Assembly: GCF_000374825.1 (NCBI RefSeq)
Contig: NZ_KB895377.1
Span: 62,001 to 126,000 of the forward strand
Length of the DNA stretch: 64,000 bases
From: Paenibacillus sanguinis 2301083 = DSM 16941
GTDB lineage: Bacteria; Bacillota; Bacilli; Paenibacillales; Paenibacillaceae
Direction of reading: 5' to 3'
Position numbers and translations under genes: made by a program. The notes under the pieces are model-generated. The model ran no database searches. It was not told where the DNA came from and worked only from the letters and a program-made list of their open reading frames with translations. This document shows positions 16,029 through 42,897 of the stretch, one piece after another. Position 1 is the first letter of the stretch, and each line of letters starts with the position of its first letter.

Positions 16029-17150
16029 ATGAAATTGCTGCAGGCTTTATTTTTTCCGCCGGAACAGCCCGGGGGCGTATCTTCGATGATTCCTCATCTG
16101 CAAGACCGGTTCAAGCCTCCCCATTGGGAGATGGAATTATTCTCCTTGCCTAAGCGTATTCGCTCCAAGGGGAGTGATAATGTGAAATTTCATACCTTTG
16201 ATTGGCAGCAATACGGGGAGAGCCCCATAGTCCAGAAATACGTTCAGACGTACCGCGATTACCTCTGGTGGACGAAGCTCAGAATCAAGCAGCCTTATGA
16301 ACTGATCCACTCCCATCATCCGATTGCTGGACTGGCAATGAAGGAGGTATTCCCGGAAACCCCATTGGTGCAAAGCATTCACTCCAGTTATGAGAGGGAG
16401 TTGATTCTGAACGGACGGATCAAGGAGAACGGGCTGGAGCACCGCTTCCTGACCTCACTGTATGGGGAACTGGAGCACCGCACGGATCGCTTGTTTACTG
16501 TATCGCAGTCCTTTGCGGAGTATTTGGCCCCGTATGTGCAGCATCCCGAATCCATCGGTGTTATTCCCAACGGATTTGACGAGAAGCGATTCAAGCCCGT
16601 TCCTCACGAGAACGAGGTGGCTCAACTGGTGACAGTCTGCCGCCTGGTGCCGGCCAAAGGGTTGGATATTCTGCTGAATGCTTGTGCCGAACTGAAAGAG
16701 CGCGGTCATAACTATGTATTGCACATTATCGGGGATGGACCAATCCGCCAGGAATTGGAGCAATTGGCTCAAAAGCTAGGCATCTATGATGAGACTATTT
16801 TTTATGGATATACCTTGCATCCGGAGGAATTTATGCCTTTCTTTGATATCTTCGTGCTCCCTTCCCGGGCAGAGGCGTTCGGGTCCGTATTTGCTGAGGC
16901 GGCTCTTTGCAGTCTGGCGCTGGTCGGTACAGCGACAGGAGGAATTGCCGAGCAGATTGAGGATGGAATAAATGGCTTGCTGGTGCCGCCGGAGGACCCG
17001 TCTGCACTTGCCGTGGCCCTGGAGAAGGTCATTGTTGATCCGGACTACCGGTATCAACTGGCCCGCAGCGGGTCGGAGAAGGCAAAATCCCAATATTCAC
17101 TCAACCGTGTAGTACATGAGCTGAAGACATTATACCTGCAATTCAAATAA
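16029..17150 (+). CDS. Glycosyltransferase family 4 (CotSA-like)
   Basis: A retaining GT-B sugar transferase of 373 residues. The N-terminal half has PPEQPGGVSSMIPHL and the HSHHPIAGLAMK acceptor-side motif; the C-terminal Rossmann half has VCRLVPAKGLDILLNA, GDGPIRQELE and the donor-binding motif PSRAEAFGSVFAEAAL with the catalytic E-x7-E spacing. The length and shape fit glycosyltransferases of cell-surface or spore-coat polysaccharide (CotSA group), but the substrate cannot be read. The ATG follows AAAGGAG by eight bases. A TATAAT at 15986-15991 may be its -10 box. The next gene starts 17 bases later, on an unrelated function. Confidence 0.85.
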   Translation: MKLLQALFFPPEQPGGVSSMIPHLQDRFKPPHWEMELFSLPKRIRSKGSDNVKFHTFDWQQYGESPIVQKYVQTYRDYLWWTKLRIKQPYELIHSHHPIAGLAMKEVFPETPLVQSIHSSYERELILNGRIKENGLEHRFLTSLYGELEHRTDRLFTVSQSFAEYLAPYVQHPESIGVIPNGFDEKRFKPVPHENEVAQLVTVCRLVPAKGLDILLNACAELKERGHNYVLHIIGDGPIRQELEQLAQKLGIYDETIFYGYTLHPEEFMPFFDIFVLPSRAEAFGSVFAEAALCSLALVGTATGGIAEQIEDGINGLLVPPEDPSALAVALEKVIVDPDYRYQLARSGSEKAKSQYSLNRVVHELKTLYLQFK

Positions 17151-17167: not shown

Positions 17168-18499
17168 ATGAACGCTTTTCGTTTTCTTCATGCGGCCGAT
17201 CTGCATCTGGACACCCCGTTCTCCGGGATGTCCGGCGTGCCGGATCGGCTGCGTGCCCATTTAAGGGAATCTACCTTTGCGGCATTTGACCGCCTGATCG
17301 GACTAGCTATTGAGGAGGAAGTTGATTTTGTCGTCATTAGCGGGGATATTTACGATGCGGCTGATTCCTCGCTGCGGGCGCAGCTCCGACTAAGAGAAGG
17401 CTGGGACAAGCTGGGGAAGCATGGTATTCCGGTCTATTTCATCCGGGGCAATCACGATCCCTTGTCCAGTCGGCGCTTGCGGCTCGCCTTGCCCCCGCAT
17501 GTCAAGGAGTTCGGTGGCCAGGTCGAGAGTACAACCGCCGTCCGCCGCAAGGACGGCCAGCCCGTGGCGATCGTGACCGGCGTCTCGTATAAGACTGCGG
17601 CGGTGAGCGATAATCTGTCCTTGCAATACCACAGACAGCCGGGCTCATCGCTGTATCATATCGCCCTCCTGCATGGAAACGTAGAGGGTCAGGAAGGGCA
17701 TGATGCTTATGCTCCTTGCTCCCTGGCTGATCTGCAGGCCTCAGGATACGACTATTGGGCGCTGGGGCATATCCACAAACGGCAGGTCTTGTGCAAGGCT
17801 CCGTGGGTGGTCTATCCGGGCAACCTTCAGGGGCGGAGTCTGAAGGAAACCGGCCCTAAAGGCTGTTATATCGTTGATGTCAAGGACAATGGGGAGGCGG
17901 AGCTGTCATTTCGGAGGCTGGAGCAGGTATTATGGCTTGAGGTACAGCTCCCGATTGAGGGGCTGGACACGGAAGAAGCGTGGAAGACGCTCGTGGAGGA
18001 ACGGTTAGATGAGCTTCGGGAAGAGGAAGCTGGCAAAATTACGGTGGTTCGCCTGGTGTTCACCGGGCGTGGATCGCTGCATGGCCTGCTGCAATCTGAA
18101 GAAGAGACGACGGAGCTATTGCAGGAATTGCGGCGTCAGGAAAGCCTCAGGCTGACAGAGCTGGAACCACACGCAGGTACATCTGCCTTGTCGGGAGGGA
18201 TTGTGTGGCCGGCGAGTCTGCGAGTAGAGACTGGAGCAGAACTGGACCGAGATCAGCTGCTGTCCGAGGATAGCTTCCTGGGCGAGTTGCTCAGGTTAGG
18301 GGACAAGGCTGCCGGCGATGCCGAATTGCTGAGCGAGATTACCGCGCAGGCCTTGGCGGACTTGGAGGGGCATCGTCAGCTTCGTCGCCACATGAAAGAG
18401 CTGGGGCTGCCGGACAAGGCGGATTTGCTGCGTCGTGCGGAGGAGATGGCTGCCACCTTGCTGGCGGAAGAAGAAGCGGAGGGGAGGCTGCCATCATGA
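17168..18499 (+). CDS. YhaO-type metallo-phosphoesterase nuclease (SbcD/Mre11-like)
   Basis: A DNA repair nuclease subunit of 443 residues. The metal-binding motifs of the Mre11 family are present in order: HAADLHLDTPF, ISGDIYDAAD, IRGNHDPLSS, LLHGNVEG and LGHIHKRQ. The C-terminal 200 residues are acidic and helical, as expected for the part that binds the ATPase partner. It is followed with a 4-base overlap by the YhaN-type ATPase, so the two form a complex of the Mre11-Rad50 kind. The homologues in B. subtilis are YhaO and YhaN; classical SbcD has a shorter C-terminal region. Start is ATG eleven bases after GGGAGAGG. Confidence 0.88.
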   Translation: MNAFRFLHAADLHLDTPFSGMSGVPDRLRAHLRESTFAAFDRLIGLAIEEEVDFVVISGDIYDAADSSLRAQLRLREGWDKLGKHGIPVYFIRGNHDPLSSRRLRLALPPHVKEFGGQVESTTAVRRKDGQPVAIVTGVSYKTAAVSDNLSLQYHRQPGSSLYHIALLHGNVEGQEGHDAYAPCSLADLQASGYDYWALGHIHKRQVLCKAPWVVYPGNLQGRSLKETGPKGCYIVDVKDNGEAELSFRRLEQVLWLEVQLPIEGLDTEEAWKTLVEERLDELREEEAGKITVVRLVFTGRGSLHGLLQSEEETTELLQELRRQESLRLTELEPHAGTSALSGGIVWPASLRVETGAELDRDQLLSEDSFLGELLRLGDKAAGDAELLSEITAQALADLEGHRQLRRHMKELGLPDKADLLRRAEEMAATLLAEEEAEGRLPS

Positions 18500-21400
18500 A
18501 GCTGGAGCGCATGCAGATCCGCGGCTTTGGCCGCCTGAACGGGCTGGAGATCGAGCTGCCGGGCCCTATCACGGTACTGCATGGTCCAAATGAAGCGGGG
18601 AAAAGCACTTTGCTTGGCTTCGTTCGGGCCATGCTGTTTGGCATCCCCTCGCGTTCACAGGCGGCGGAGCGTTACGAGCCGCTGCAAGGCGGTGTTCACG
18701 GAGGTGCGTTGACCCTTGTATCGGAAGACGGCAGCCGCTGGATGATCGAACGTTATACCCAGCCACCGGAAGGCCGGAATTTGCCAGGGACGAGGGGGGA
18801 CCGTTTGCGAATTACTCGCAGCGACGAGAATGGACAAGTCCGTGAGGTTACACAGGAACAAATGCAACGGGAATTGCTAGGCGGTATGTCCAAGGCGATG
18901 TTCAGGCAATTGTTCGCCGTGTCGCTCACGGAATTGCAGGAGGTTGGCGCGTTGCAGTCCGGGGAGCTGAGCCGCTATTTGTTCCATGCCGGAATCGGCG
19001 GGGGGGCAGCGGTGCTCCGCGGTGAGAAGAAGCTCGTTCAGGAGATGGACAAGCTGTATCGCCCGCGTGGACGGACGCAGGAGATCGCAAAGCTGCTTCA
19101 AGAGCTGGAGCGGCTGGAGCGTGAAGCGGAGGCAGCGAAAGCACTGCTGCCTCGTTACAACGATGTGCTGGAGGAACTGGAGGTTTTGGCAGGGCAGCTT
19201 GCCGATAACAAGGCTGAGCGTAAACGGTTAAGCCTGGAAACGGCAAGATGGTCCAAGGCGGTGAGCGTCCGGGCGGACTGGCTGCATAGGCAGGCCCTTC
19301 GGGCTGAGCTTGCGGCATTGCCAGAAGTTGCCCGCTTCCCCGGTCAAGGAGCTGCGCGGTGGCAAGCCCTGCAAGCGGAACGAGAGCGCCTGCAACTGGA
19401 GCAAAATGAATGGGCGCGGCGGCGGAAGACGCTGCTCGCGGAGCAGGCCCGGCATGTTCCGGATGAGCGGGTGCTGGCGCAGGAGCCTGTGCTGCGCCAA
19501 CTGGCTGCTCGTCTGCCGGGGTATGAAGCCGGGCAAGCGGAGCTGGCCAAGCTGGAGGCGGAATCCGCCCAGCTTGAGGCCCGGCTTGGTGAATGTTTGC
19601 GCAGCATTCATCCGGATTGGCGGACGCGGGACCTGCGCGGCTTCGCCGGGACGGTTGGCGAACGGGAAAGCGTTCGCCGCTTTCAATCCCGGTTCACGTC
19701 GTACGACCGGGAGATGGAGCTGCTGCGCAGCGAGCGCTACAAGCTGGAGCGGGCTGCGGCGAATGCAGAGGCTGCTCACGAGGCCGCGGCTGCGCGGCTG
19801 CGGGACAGCGCAGCGCAAGGGAGGCAGCAATTCGCGATGCTCGTGCCAGAGCAGCCCAGCGAGGTCCGCGTGTTGTGGAACGAGCTGCGTGCAGCGCTCG
19901 ACCGCTGGCGCGGGCAGGCATCAGCGCGGCAGCAGGCTCAACGCGATGCCGAGGTAGAGGCGCTCGCTCATGCGCAGGTGCGGGGGCTGAGCCGCCGCCT
20001 GCTGGCAGCCAGCTCCGCGCTGACGCTGGGCTTGCCCGCCGTGTTGTGGCTGACGGCGGATTCTCCGTGGAGCGCCGTGTTTGCCGGCGCTCTGTTGCTT
20101 GGCCTGGACGCCTATTTGGCCGTCCTGGCCTTCCGGGGCCGCCCCGCGGCGGGGCGGCCCGCTGCCAGCGGGCGCAGCGGAGGAGCAGGTCCTCGCCCGG
20201 ACGGACGCCGGCCCCGGCGACCCGGCGTGGCGGAGGACGGTGCCGAGACGAGCCTGGCCGAGCTGTTGGCCCGGCTGATTCGCCACCCGTATACCGCCGC
20301 CGGCGGGGTTGCCTCCCGCGCTGACGCGAAGCCGCCCGGCCCGGTCAATTGGGACGAGGAAGAGCGGCAGTTGCGCCGCTTGATGGAGGAATGGCTGCTG
20401 TGGGAGCAGCGGCATACGGCACTGGAGAGTGAAGCGGAGTTAACGCTTGTCAGGATGACCGCCGCTAAGGATGAACTGCAGGCCATGGAGCGTGAATTGG
20501 CCCGGCGAGAAGAAGTCTTTGGCCAGCTTGCCGGGGAATGGGAAGAGTGGCTTGCCGAGCGACGGTTGTCTGTAAGCCTGTCGCCTGAAGCAGCGCTGGA
20601 GGTGTTCCGTCTGGCCGAGCACGGCCGGGAGCTGCTTGGCCGATATGATGCCTTGACGGAGAAGTGCGCCGGGCTTCAGGAGCAGAACGAGCGGTTTGAA
20701 CAGGAATGCTGTGTTATATTCCAGTCGTCGGGAGTCGTGCAGGACGAGGAAGCTGTCCCTGATGAGCAGCAATTCCGCAAGGACGAATTACAGCCCGGGG
20801 GGCAAGGAAGTACGCCTTCCCATATCCTGCACCGGGCGCTGGAGCAATTGGAGCGGGAGCTTGTCCACAAGCGAGACCATGATCAGCTAGGAACTGCATT
20901 GCTGTCCGTCGAGGAGGAAGGACGGCGGCTGGAGGATCGTATGCAGCAGGTTTTACATTCGGAGCGGACGCTTTTAGCGGAGGCTGGGGCTCATTCCGGC
21001 GAGGAATTTCTGCGTCTCGGAGCGGCTGTGGAACGCCGCCAAGCGTTGGAACGCGAATTACGGCAATCCGAGTTGGTATTGTTCGCCGGGCTTGATGAGC
21101 GCAGGTCTGACGAACTGGAGCAATTGCTGCGAGGAGCGGATGAGACGGAATTGATACAGCAATTGGAAGGGGCCGAGCAAGCCTTGAAGCTGGCGGAGCG
21201 TAGCGGACAGGAGCTGCAAGAGAAGCGAGGCCGTCTGTTGCAGGAGCAAGAAAGCCTGGAAGTGCGCTGCCGGCAGGAGGATTTGCAGCAGCAGCTCGCC
21301 GAACAGCGGGCGTTATTTACCGAGGTGCTGGACCGGTACGCAGTCATGGCGGTGTGTCATGAATTAATTGGACGTACCCGCCGGGTGTACGAGGAGGAAC

Positions 21401-21795
21401 GCCAGCCCGCAGTGTTACAGGCAGCTTCGGAATTTTTCACCCAAATGACGGACGGGGTGTATAAGAAAATTTTCATGAAAATAGGCAGTCAGGAGCTGAT
21501 GGCCGAACATACCGTGCATGGACCGCTGGACAGTGCCTTGTTAAGCCGGGGAACAGCCGAGCAGTTATATTTGGCGATGCGGTTGGCCTTATCCGGAGCA
21601 GTTGCCGGACGGAGCAGCTTGCCGCTGTTGCTGGATGATCTGTTCGTTAACTTTGATGCCGTTCGGTTGGAAGGAGCGCTGTCCGTGTTGCGGGAGGTGG
21701 CCAATCGCCAGCAGGTTGTCATGATGACCTGCCATGAGCATGTTGTGGAGCGGATCCAAGCAACGATGCCCGCAGCGAACATCGTCAGGTTATAA
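18496..21795 (+). CDS. YhaN-type SMC/Rad50-like ATPase with membrane segment
   Basis: The ATPase partner of the preceding nuclease, 1099 residues. It has a Walker A motif GPNEAGKST near residue 35, two long coiled-coil arms (about 195-490 and 630-960), the ABC signature SRGTAEQLYLAMRLAL and the Walker B LPLLLDDLFVNFD near the end. In the middle, where Rad50 has its zinc hook, there is no CxxC; instead two hydrophobic helices (about 502-520 and 528-551) suggest the arms are joined at the membrane. A GC-rich, Arg/Gly/Pro-rich insert follows (about 552-580) and contains a perfect 10-bp palindrome at 20136-20160. ATGA overlap with the upstream gene shows translational coupling. Confidence 0.88.
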   Translation: MKLERMQIRGFGRLNGLEIELPGPITVLHGPNEAGKSTLLGFVRAMLFGIPSRSQAAERYEPLQGGVHGGALTLVSEDGSRWMIERYTQPPEGRNLPGTRGDRLRITRSDENGQVREVTQEQMQRELLGGMSKAMFRQLFAVSLTELQEVGALQSGELSRYLFHAGIGGGAAVLRGEKKLVQEMDKLYRPRGRTQEIAKLLQELERLEREAEAAKALLPRYNDVLEELEVLAGQLADNKAERKRLSLETARWSKAVSVRADWLHRQALRAELAALPEVARFPGQGAARWQALQAERERLQLEQNEWARRRKTLLAEQARHVPDERVLAQEPVLRQLAARLPGYEAGQAELAKLEAESAQLEARLGECLRSIHPDWRTRDLRGFAGTVGERESVRRFQSRFTSYDREMELLRSERYKLERAAANAEAAHEAAAARLRDSAAQGRQQFAMLVPEQPSEVRVLWNELRAALDRWRGQASARQQAQRDAEVEALAHAQVRGLSRRLLAASSALTLGLPAVLWLTADSPWSAVFAGALLLGLDAYLAVLAFRGRPAAGRPAASGRSGGAGPRPDGRRPRRPGVAEDGAETSLAELLARLIRHPYTAAGGVASRADAKPPGPVNWDEEERQLRRLMEEWLLWEQRHTALESEAELTLVRMTAAKDELQAMERELARREEVFGQLAGEWEEWLAERRLSVSLSPEAALEVFRLAEHGRELLGRYDALTEKCAGLQEQNERFEQECCVIFQSSGVVQDEEAVPDEQQFRKDELQPGGQGSTPSHILHRALEQLERELVHKRDHDQLGTALLSVEEEGRRLEDRMQQVLHSERTLLAEAGAHSGEEFLRLGAAVERRQALERELRQSELVLFAGLDERRSDELEQLLRGADETELIQQLEGAEQALKLAERSGQELQEKRGRLLQEQESLEVRCRQEDLQQQLAEQRALFTEVLDRYAVMAVCHELIGRTRRVYEEERQPAVLQAASEFFTQMTDGVYKKIFMKIGSQELMAEHTVHGPLDSALLSRGTAEQLYLAMRLALSGAVAGRSSLPLLLDDLFVNFDAVRLEGALSVLREVANRQQVVMMTCHEHVVERIQATMPAANIVRL
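20136..20160. repeat. GC palindrome in the YhaN linker
   Basis: GGGCCGCCCC (20136-20145), five bases, then its exact complement GGGGCGGCCC (20151-20160). It encodes the Arg/Pro/Ala-rich segment just behind the second membrane helix and lies in the most GC-rich part of the window. Confidence 0.7.
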
Positions 21796-39003: not shown

Positions 39004-39110
39004 TACGTAAAATGGCACGGAGAGAAGCGCAAACTCACGCCCTGCTGCATCGCTTGATTGGAGATGGCGAATATTTGTTATATAATTTGCCTCAGGGAGG
39101 TGAGCGTTTC

Positions 39111-39335
39111 ATGATTTCGGACGAGCAGTTGAATCAGTATCGGTTGTCCGGTGAAAAGGTGCGGGTGGTGCGTGATGGCATCGAGAGCAATGATGTTCGG
39201 GGCGTTGTCGTGGCCTGGGATGATACGCATGTGCTGATTCGCAAGCCCAACCGCAATGTAGTCAAGCTGGACCGTAATTATATTTACCAGCCCTCTCGGG
39301 AGCCACGGGCTTCTCTGGATGGTCTGAACGAATAA
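39111..39335 (+). CDS. Hypothetical small protein, 74 residues
   Basis: I do not recognise it. The sequence begins MISDEQLNQYRLSGEKVRVVRDG and then has beta-rich, basic stretches (GVVVAWDDTHVLIRKPNRNVVKLDRNYIYQ), which could form a small SH3- or Sm-like barrel. The ribosome site GGGAGGTGA seven bases ahead of the ATG at 39111 is excellent. TATAAT at 39081-39086 may be its own -10 box, so it need not belong to the opp operon. It ends at the terminator at 39365-39395. Confidence 0.75.
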   Translation: MISDEQLNQYRLSGEKVRVVRDGIESNDVRGVVVAWDDTHVLIRKPNRNVVKLDRNYIYQPSREPRASLDGLNE

Positions 39336-40552: not shown

Positions 40553-41422
40553 TTGGAAAGCAACGATTTGAAGATATTTCAGGCTGTTGCCAGAGAAGGA
40601 AGTATTACCAAAGCCGCGCAGGCGTTAAACTATGTCCAGTCCAATGTGACAGCCCGGATTCAATTTTTGGAGGCTGAACTAAAGCTCCCGCTTTTTCGGC
40701 GAACGAATCGAGGGATGATTTTGACCGCTGCAGGAGAAAATTTGCTTCATTACGCTGATCAAATTATAGACCTGCTGGCAGAAGCGCTCCGGACTACACA
40801 AGGTTCAGATGTCCCTGCGGGCGCTTTGCGCATAGGGTGTATTGAAACGGCTGCTGCCTATGACTTACTTCCGGTGATTAAAAAATATCAATCCCATTAT
40901 CCGGAGGTTCAATTTCTGCTGCAAACGGGCGAAACCCATCATCTTTTGCAAAAGGTGTTGACCGGTGAAGTGGACGGAGCTTTTGTTTATGGTCCGATTC
41001 ATGAATCGCACATTGAATATCTGCCTATATTTGAAGATGAGCTTGTTTTGATTTCCGAACGTAACAGAGCAGAGGCAAACATAGAAGAACTGCTTGCCCT
41101 ACCCATGCTGTTTTTTGATGTTGGCTGTACCCACAGGGCCAGGGCCGAGCTTATATTGAAGGAAAAGGGGATTTCTTCTTATGAAGTCAGGGAATTTGGC
41201 ACGATGGAAGTGATCATAAATGGCGTTTCCGCCGGGTTAGGCGTATCTTTGTTGCCGCGATCCTCAGTCTTAAATGCGGAAAAGGCAGGAAAAATCGCCA
41301 GTTACGCATTGCCGGAGCAATATCGCAGGCTGGAGGTAGGATTTATATATCGAGCGGGACAGATTTACTCTGCTGCATTAGCTGCATTATTAGAGCTGGT
41401 ACAACCGTTGCATAGAAGCTGA
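40553..41422 (+). CDS. LysR-family transcriptional regulator
   Basis: A 289-residue LysR protein. The winged helix is residues 2-60 (DLKIFQAVAREGSITKAAQALNYVQSNVTARIQFLEAELKLPLFRR); the rest is the substrate-binding-like effector domain. The start is TTG, six bases after GGGAGGTGA. The 134-base spacer to the divergent MDR gene would hold the shared operator; I could not pick out a clear T-N11-A box. Its target is most likely the divergent gene. Confidence 0.9.
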   Translation: MESNDLKIFQAVAREGSITKAAQALNYVQSNVTARIQFLEAELKLPLFRRTNRGMILTAAGENLLHYADQIIDLLAEALRTTQGSDVPAGALRIGCIETAAAYDLLPVIKKYQSHYPEVQFLLQTGETHHLLQKVLTGEVDGAFVYGPIHESHIEYLPIFEDELVLISERNRAEANIEELLALPMLFFDVGCTHRARAELILKEKGISSYEVREFGTMEVIINGVSAGLGVSLLPRSSVLNAEKAGKIASYALPEQYRRLEVGFIYRAGQIYSAALAALLELVQPLHRS

Positions 41423-41465: not shown

Positions 41466-41894
41466 CTACTCAACTAATGCGGTAGCCTCTTGCCCGATTG
41501 TGCGCCCTGAGCTTGAAGCGGAGCTGGCCTCTCCGTTGCCGCTCAGGTAAGCACGCATACGCTTCGATACCTCCTGCTGAAGTGCAGACCAGAAAATGTT
41601 CATCTTGCCGTGGAAGCCTCGGTAGCGGTATTCGGCGCGAATCCCGTTCTCATCTTGGCTAATTCGGTAAATCTCGATGTTCCGCTGCCGGAATTGATCG
41701 TGAATTTCTGCCAGTACAACGGATGCCCGGCTCTCGCCGTGGCGGATAAAATCGACATAAACCTCAGGACTCTTCAAGACTCCGCTCTGCTCCAGCACCC
41801 GGGCATCCCGCTGAAATATACGCTGCAAGCACTCCAGCAGCAATGCACTCTTGATCAAGGCCAAATCATCTTCGCTTAGACCGGGAACGGCCAT
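41466..41894 (-). CDS. Hypothetical protein under a LexA box
   Basis: I do not recognise this 142-residue soluble protein. It starts MAVPGLSEDDLALIKSALLL, is mostly helical at the N-terminus, has a beta-rich middle (EIYRISQDENGIRAEYRYRGFHGKMNIFW) and a Ser-rich tail. AAGGGGTG lies ahead of the ATG at 41894. The promoter is unusually clear (TTGATA, 18 bases, TATAAT at 41931-41960), and a perfect GAAC-N4-GTTC palindrome sits at 41916-41929 between the -10 box and the gene, so repression by LexA and induction by DNA damage are likely. Confidence 0.75.
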   Translation of the reverse strand: MAVPGLSEDDLALIKSALLLECLQRIFQRDARVLEQSGVLKSPEVYVDFIRHGESRASVVLAEIHDQFRQRNIEIYRISQDENGIRAEYRYRGFHGKMNIFWSALQQEVSKRMRAYLSGNGEASSASSSGRTIGQEATALVE

Positions 41895-41915
41895 ATATCA
41901 ACACCCCTTTAAATG

Positions 41916-41929
41916 AGAACTTATGTTCT
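41916..41929. promoter_or_regulatory. LexA (SOS) box
   Basis: AGAACTTATGTTCT is a perfect 14-base palindrome around GAAC-N4-GTTC, the core of the Bacillus LexA/DinR consensus CGAAC-N4-GTTCG. It lies just downstream of the -10 box on the minus strand, where a bound repressor would block transcription. Confidence 0.75.
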
Positions 41930-41930
41930 T

Positions 41931-41960
41931 ATTATACTCTAATTTCTCCTTATTTATCAA
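41931..41960 (-). promoter_or_regulatory. Sigma-A promoter of the LexA-box gene
   Basis: On the minus strand TTGATA (41955-41960) and a perfect TATAAT (41931-41936) are spaced by 18 bases. Confidence 0.75.
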
Positions 41961-42006: not shown

Positions 42007-42897
42007 TCAATGCTTGCGGATAAATTTGTTGCGGAAGCCGGTTGGAGATAACCCTTCCTTCTGCGAAAAGCAGGAAGAGAAGTGGGAGACATGACGGAAG
42101 CCCACCTCGTCGGCAATGCGAGCCACAGACCAGGAGGTTTGCAGCAGCAGCCGCTTGGCCTGTTCGATCCGATAATTTTGCAGGTAAGCGATCGGTGTCA
42201 TTCCATAGGCTTTAAGCATGCTTTTGGCCAAATAATTCGGGTGGTAGTTCAGTTCGTCTCTAAGTACGGAGTTGGTGATGTTGCGAGTGTAGTTATGACG
42301 GATGAAGAGCTCGATTTGTTCAGCCAATTGAATGGCGGTGGCATCCGAAGGAGAGGCCAGGTCACGGTCGAGATGCTGAAGGAAGCGCTGAAAGGAGGCC
42401 TGCCTGTTCCAGTTGCGCAAGGATTGCGGTTCATGCTCCTGGGCGAAGAACAGGTCCAGTACTTCCATGGCTTTGGGGGCGATTTTTCTGTGCTTGGGAA
42501 GGAAAATGGAGCAGACATCCGCATGATTAACGAAGGCTTTCTGTTTATGGTTCTGAATCAATTGAGTTTGCCCTTCAAGGCAATCGTCCATCGAGGCACA
42601 CTCGATCCAACTGCCAAAGGTCTGAAAATGAATCCAGATAATCTTTGTTTCCTCCCGGCAGGGAGCATTGCCATAATGATGCCCGTCAGGACACAGGATG
42701 AGAAATTCTCCTTCACGCACCTCCCAGGATCTGTCGTTCTCCGCTACGGGAAGCATTCCCTTGAGGACAACGATCAGGTCAAACACACCGATGCAATTAC
42801 GGTTGATATGATAATCGCCTTCGTCGTAAGAAGCGTGCCCGCAATCCACAAAATAGGGAATGGGCGGCGAGATGAAATGCAAGATGGATGAGTTCAT
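42007..42897 (-). CDS. AraC-family regulator, likely for the adjacent sugar importer
   Basis: A 296-residue regulator. The N-terminal cupin-like domain (about 1-150) should sense a sugar (VVLKGMLPVAENDRSWEVREGEFLILCPDGHHYG); the C-terminal two helix-turn-helix motifs are seen in ITNSVLRDELNYHPNYLAKSMLKAYGMTPIAYLQNYRIEQAKRLLLQTSWSVARIADEVGFRHVSHFSSCFSQKEG. GGAGGG lies six bases ahead of the ATG. It is divergent from the ABC importer, and their 160-base spacer has a CcpA-like site, so it most likely activates that importer. Confidence 0.88.
   Translation of the reverse strand: MNSSILHFISPPIPYFVDCGHASYDEGDYHINRNCIGVFDLIVVLKGMLPVAENDRSWEVREGEFLILCPDGHHYGNAPCREETKIIWIHFQTFGSWIECASMDDCLEGQTQLIQNHKQKAFVNHADVCSIFLPKHRKIAPKAMEVLDLFFAQEHEPQSLRNWNRQASFQRFLQHLDRDLASPSDATAIQLAEQIELFIRHNYTRNITNSVLRDELNYHPNYLAKSMLKAYGMTPIAYLQNYRIEQAKRLLLQTSWSVARIADEVGFRHVSHFSSCFSQKEGLSPTGFRNKFIRKH

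Follow-up and report, generated by a model that had tools for sequence, protein, structure and literature searches.

The window, which is the whole stretch of 64,000 nucleotides of Paenibacillus sanguinis DNA analysed here, holds on its minus strand an ORF (41894..41466 in the ORF list) that starts with ATG and encodes 142 residues. The feature at 41466..41894 is assigned to the family of PHROG 34234, called YhjD-like in what follows, on the basis of the ORF, a PHROG match, 20 close orthologues and an AlphaFold2 model. In front of the gene, and on the same strand, there is a promoter of the form TTGATA-18-TATAAT (41960..41931) with 11 of 12 matches to the consensus. Its -35 hexamer, TTGATA, occupies 41955..41960, and 16 of the 20 aligned orthologues have TTGAT; the -10 hexamer, TATAAT, lies at 41931..41936 after a spacer of 18, and TA..AT stands at the same place in 20 orthologue promoters. 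One base past the -10 hexamer comes a LexA-type operator, AGAACATAAGTTCT (41916..41929, minus strand), which reads AGAACTTATGTTCT on the plus strand. The initial annotation had reported a perfect AGAAC-N4-GTTCT palindrome between a near-consensus promoter and the gene, and this is what is present at these positions. The gap from the box to the ATG is 21 bases, and a Shine-Dalgarno-like stretch read by eye, AAAGGGGTG (41902..41910, minus strand), is placed 7 bases 5' of the start codon. With a single base between the -10 hexamer and the box, bound LexA would cover the likely transcription start. Judging from the neighbouring ORFs, the upstream one, on the same strand, ending at 42007 and the convergent one at 41422, the gene seems to form a transcription unit by itself, with a promoter of its own. 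Genes resembling LysR- and AraC-type regulators (named by eye) are its neighbours in the window.

Two other stretches of the window may be mentioned here. A 107-residue ORF at 39012-39335, without a Pfam family, follows a peptidase T-like gene; the end of an apparent homologue can be read by eye beside two of the orthologue loci (L008 and L011), and this ORF may thus be a conserved neighbour of the 142-residue gene. At 17168-21795, after a glycosyltransferase-like gene at 16029, there are an SbcD/YhaO-like gene and a long SMC-like ATPase gene (all named by eye), upstream of which we found only a site with one mismatch, GAATGGATGTTC (15932), as expected by chance.

Conservation of the box

Taken alone, one such box is weak evidence, because the genome contains 60 perfect GAACNNNNGTTC sites and shows no excess over a reversed control pattern, which occurs 142 times; moreover, 15 of the 23 other placed genome sites fall within mechanically called ORFs. 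The window has two perfect sites, the second of which (6575) lies within a coding ORF, and 25 sites with at most one mismatch compared to 18.6 +/- 4.1 in shuffled sequences, a number that 6 of 100 shuffles reach. The initial annotation had noted that dinB, in the same window, has no box, and the 226 bases that precede the ORF at 2377 indeed contain no site with zero or one mismatch. A further copy of the site in this genome, GAACATAAGTTC (contig C4:224204-224215, locus L049:2705-2716), has a TlyA-like gene on one side and, on the other, an unknown ORF of 198 residues followed by an ArgR-like gene (genes identified by eye); this TlyA-like/ArgR-like operon may contain an internal LexA promoter.

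A search of 59 genomes (E at most 4.2e-29) gave 20 close orthologues, the copy of the window included. They come from 20 of 36 genomes of the same genus, the other 16 being without one so close. All 20 have a perfect GAAC-N4-GTTC box upstream, the GAAC beginning at a distance of 32 to 59 bases from the matched start, and the consensus is GAAC-(A/G)TAA-GTTC, the core being ATAA in 19 cases and GTAA in one. When the upstream regions are aligned on the box, GAAC.TAAGTTC and parts of the -10 hexamer are identical in all 20 while most neighbouring columns vary; the rows of this alignment were picked by a motif that presumes the box, and the count of 20 out of 20 comes from a separate upstream scan. 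Among three named loci, Paenibacillus senegalimassiliensis is the nearest (89% identity over residues 1-132); P. macerans is new and provides an additional orthologue with the box, beyond the 20, and the other two loci appear to belong to genomes already counted.

The box is also found far outside the genus. The family profile matched 115 of 299 sampled genomes of the class, from 57 of 118 genera, and we picked by hand, hence not at random, 40 remote homologues from the 88 matching genomes of other families. A perfect box lies within 150 bp upstream of 25 of these 40 genes and of none of 177 control ORFs (Fisher 1e-22); with one mismatch allowed the numbers are 35 of 40 and 13 of 177 (Fisher 3e-24), and with two, 36 of 40 and 84 of 177. 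The control ORFs were taken from the same loci mechanically, with starts set at the first start codon, so that some of their upstream stretches lie inside other genes. In shuffled upstream regions of the family, perfect boxes have a frequency of 0.14% and boxes within one mismatch of 3.5%. Five remote homologues have no box at this level (L099, L111, L113, L124 and L133), and three of them, L099, L113 and L133, are located downstream in polymerase operons, a position in which a gene would not be expected to have its own box. For seven of ten diverged homologues (L021-L030), there is a site with no more than one mismatch within 250 bp; none was found in that interval for L021, L022 and L028.

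The family was also detected in 29 of 31 viral loci, L139 (a weak, partial match) and L165 (a fragment) being left out. In 17 of the 29, a site with at most one mismatch lies within 150 bp of the family gene. Of the 12 others, seven (L154-L158, L162 and L163) have a site at yolD, one (L161) is on a contig that begins at the yolD-yhjD pair, and four (L164, L166, L167 and L169) have no site by the family gene. When prophage yolD-yhjD pairs are considered, seven of the eight examined, the eighth being L161, carry their site or sites at yolD, the leading gene, which suggests that the box tends to follow the leading gene of the unit. In these eight prophage contigs there is no polymerase gene within 700 bp of the pair, several pairs stand near a contig end, and, among the matches listed, the two genes are 2 bases apart or overlap by 8 bases; in L154-L158, yolD is preceded by a pair of box-like sites spaced by about 30 bases.

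The question of a mere coincidence can be answered from these figures. What could be said for a chance match is the number of perfect sites in the genome, their lack of excess over the reversed pattern and the frequent location of other sites inside ORFs. But all close orthologues keep the box, and 35 of 40 remote homologues have one that deviates at a single position at most, which makes such a reading untenable, with a probability that we consider negligible. The initial annotation had raised the possibility that the box overlaps the promoter fortuitously; its place and its conservation are beyond chance.

Probable control by LexA

The genome encodes one LexA (over the cut-off), with two perfect boxes before lexA (contig C10:79811 and 79863), and its recA carries CGAATATATGTTCG, a box with one mismatch. 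Together with the box conserved before the homologues, these sites make it very likely that the 142-residue gene is under LexA/SOS control, and the corresponding proposal of the initial annotation is thereby strongly supported; the search for the box before homologues in related genomes, which it had suggested as a check, gave the 20 of 20 and 35 of 40 reported above. The palindrome could instead be the operator of another repressor, a view to which the asymmetric and, within the genus, nearly invariant core lends something (ATAA in 19 of 20). Remote homologues, however, keep the GAAC and GTTC halves around varied cores, and these halves are the LexA consensus of B. subtilis according to PMC4234289; furthermore, lexA and recA of this genome bear the same kind of site. 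We therefore regard another repressor as very improbable. From the conserved sites, regulation would proceed as follows: by occupying 41916-41929, immediately behind the -10 hexamer, LexA would block the gene's own promoter, and, upon DNA damage, RecA filaments would induce self-cleavage of LexA, the promoter would be released and the protein would be made.

The protein family and its predicted fold

The initial annotation had recognized no family for the product. This holds for Pfam and NCBIfam, in which the protein has sub-threshold matches only (and five other family members have no NCBIfam match), but not overall: PHROG 34234, of unknown function, matches residues 4-119 with an E-value of 5e-21 (positions 19-132 of the 150 of the profile), and relatives exist in the 115 genomes of the class already mentioned. 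The idea of a familyless protein is rejected by these matches and by the close orthologues. The YolD family, PF08863, gives no match to the window protein at E-values up to 1. With PADLOC there was no hit for the window protein, and one of 29 family members had a weak Cas2 match (E 0.006). The PHROG entry itself carries neither function nor regulation. One plasmid record contains the window protein and twelve contain that of locus L098, annotated as 'hypothetical protein' or without a feature; no phage record contains the latter, and seven records, all of Paenibacillus larvae phages, contain relatives 34% identical to a paralogue from this genome.

Eight residues are invariant in an alignment of 16 members (R29, D30, K41, Y46, Y89, R92, E108 and Y116), three of which, D30, Y46 and Y116, are still so among 29 more diverse members. 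The AlphaFold2 model, computed from 29 sequences, has a mean pLDDT of 84.2; 105 of the 142 residues reach at least 90, and residues 122-142 stay under 50. It predicts a helix-helix-strand-strand-strand-helix fold, the first two helices being long. Solved structures yielded no relative by sequence (best E 0.41), nor did Foldseek find a match with E <= 0.001 in the PDB or BFVD. The best Z obtained with VIA-align was 6.7, for the segment 16-111 of a seryl-tRNA synthetase (78 aligned, rmsd 2.8), in a range that the tool calls common. The weakness of these matches does not show that the predicted fold is new.

Polymerase and YolD neighbourhoods

The same genome has, on another contig (C19, locus L031:6154-9488), two tandem paralogues of the gene, each directly before a Y-family polymerase gene, with a PF08863 YolD gene after the second paralogue-polymerase unit and a perfect box 74 bases before the first paralogue. 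The first polymerase ORF looks truncated, since it has 289 residues compared to 414 for the second. In four relatives (L032, L034, L035 and L037) a paralogue also directly precedes a Y-family polymerase gene; YolD is found behind the polymerase in L032 and L035, and the ORF lists of L034 and L037 are without it. Other gene orders are PolY-YolD-YhjD (L113) and PolY-YhjD-YolD (L133), and in at least five genomes (G145, G178, G252, G270 and G279) YolD lies 74-81 bases downstream of YhjD. YolD adjoins the family gene in 13 of the 29 viral loci; six of 13 loci with YolD hits, viral or not (L142, L156, L157, L158, L166 and L167), had supplied seeds for the YolD profile that we built, and PF08863 confirms the assignment in L142 and L156. 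The locus groups of this survey overlap, and its counts are therefore not additive. At the level of whole genomes, YolD is present in 114 of the 115 YhjD-positive ones and in 127 of the 184 others, a difference inflated by shared ancestry.

A different arrangement is found in locus L099. There, an ORF directly behind a polymerase gene aligns to our YolD profile with its residues 5-44 and to the YhjD profile with its residues 35-147. Its first 45 residues alone score 24.1 bits against the YolD profile, a value that none of 2000 shuffles reaches (best 10.4); the Pfam YolD model did not report this arm, which thus rests on the profile made here.

In spite of these cases, stand-alone copies dominate. 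Within 700 bp, none of the 20 close orthologues has a polymerase or a YolD gene for a neighbour, and a polymerase gene lies at that distance from only 3 of the 40 remote homologues, the other 37 standing apart from polymerases.

Relation to known systems

B. subtilis YhjD, which is small and has no assigned function, is listed as an SOS protein. Its gene is reportedly listed as a LexA target by Au et al. in 2005. The present family may well include it, as suggested by the PHROG 34234 profile, which among 14 control genomes matches in Bacillus subtilis alone, and by the name used in a 2026 paper (PMC12926913). That paper models a 'Cohnella abietis YhjD' as a polymerase subunit, with an arm inserted in the polymerase. 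The ORF of L099 resembles this protein, as described in the paper, in having a YolD/YqjX-like N-terminal arm joined to another domain and in lying behind a Y-family polymerase gene, and its second domain gives a match to the window protein's family; from this architecture, rather than from sequence, we infer that both probably belong to one family. The window protein differs from the Cohnella variant in being arm-less and stand-alone, with a LexA-type promoter of its own, and the accessible text of PMC12926913 mentions neither LexA boxes nor solitary copies. As one arm-bearing member is named in that paper, the YhjD-like family is not new. The initial annotation had suggested a new SOS gene, and this is only partly sustained: the literature searched yielded nothing on this gene, yet a B. 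subtilis gene that is reportedly a LexA target may well be a member of the family. Searches on yhjD with LexA, SOS or Bacillus subtilis returned PMC12926913 as the sole relevant paper, and we found no published account of a stand-alone YhjD branch with LexA-type boxes across Bacilli, or of prophage yolD-yhjD pairs.

YolD/YqjX proteins, neighbours of the YhjD-like family in several loci, are small SOS proteins paired with UvrX/YqjW polymerases, and this family (PF08863) is proposed in PMC6511836 as the counterpart of UmuD. The window protein is unlike YolD, having no PF08863 match and a predicted fold that differs from the SH3-like core described for YolD.

Possible function

We favour, as the reasonably probable interpretation, that the gene encodes an arm-less, stand-alone accessory protein of a YolD/polymerase complex, repressed by LexA and induced in the SOS response. 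The protein may help an error-prone polymerase to copy damaged DNA. It would join an error-prone translesion complex as a small accessory subunit, acting with YolD, the UmuD-like partner whose N-terminal arm published models place inside the polymerase, and with a UvrX/YqjW-type Y-family polymerase that is encoded elsewhere in the genome. Physical contact with this complex is suggested by the neighbourhoods and by the arm-YhjD fusion. Lacking the arm, the window protein cannot dock in the way that YolD is modelled to; at a guess, it would bind YolD or the polymerase by a helical face. At damaged forks it would shape the access or the activity of the polymerase, with a presumed effect on mutagenesis.

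Several facts count against a polymerase subunit. The main one is that all 20 close orthologues stand apart from polymerase and YolD genes, as do 37 of the 40 remote homologues from polymerases. The absence of a close orthologue from 16 of 36 genomes of the genus, of a YolD match in the window protein and of a confident structural match also weighs against it. In addition, the parent polymerase-YqjX model, on which the subunit reading is built, is itself put in doubt by the results given in PMC13335488: no PolY2-YqjX contact was detected, loss of YqjX had no significant effect in B. subtilis, and the proposed polymerase-YqjX-RecA complex is without experimental support. The chief rival is that the gene belongs to the SOS response but has a different task (checkpoint, recombination or fork protection) and no contact with a polymerase, its neighbours being merely co-regulated. 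The rarity of polymerase adjacency (0 of 20 close and 3 of 40 remote homologues) and the absence of a fold match that hints at a function speak for this, and we give it a lesser but appreciable chance. Nevertheless, adjacency to YolD or a polymerase recurs in different orders, and an arm-YhjD fusion placed behind a polymerase is more specific than shared regulation. A prophage-derived function is improbable, in which the gene would serve phages at induction and the chromosomal copies would be domesticated: homologues do exist on viral contigs, several of them near contig ends beside lysis-like genes, and the paralogue of this genome has relatives in the P. larvae phage records cited above, but 20 of 36 genomes in the genus retain the stand-alone orthologue, with a single promoter design, and its regulator-like neighbours in the window (identified by eye) also argue against this origin.

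Returning to the accessory-protein interpretation, one may extend it beyond this genus, in a form that we put forward as a speculation and would ourselves rate as rather unlikely. Arm-less YhjD would serve the translesion complexes of Gram-positive bacteria throughout the Bacilli as a general subunit induced by SOS. A LexA promoter of its own would provide it in trans, and it would be interchangeable among stand-alone, operon, fusion and prophage forms. It might also be the missing factor that explains why yqjX deletions have a weak phenotype, and the polymerase-less yolD-yhjD pairs of prophages may redirect a host polymerase.

With LexA-type boxes occurring widely before its genes in Bacilli, YolD and polymerase neighbours in several orders and a YolD-like arm in one member, the YhjD-like protein makes a specific candidate for a component still lacking from the picture of how Bacillus-type bacteria manage damage-induced mutation.
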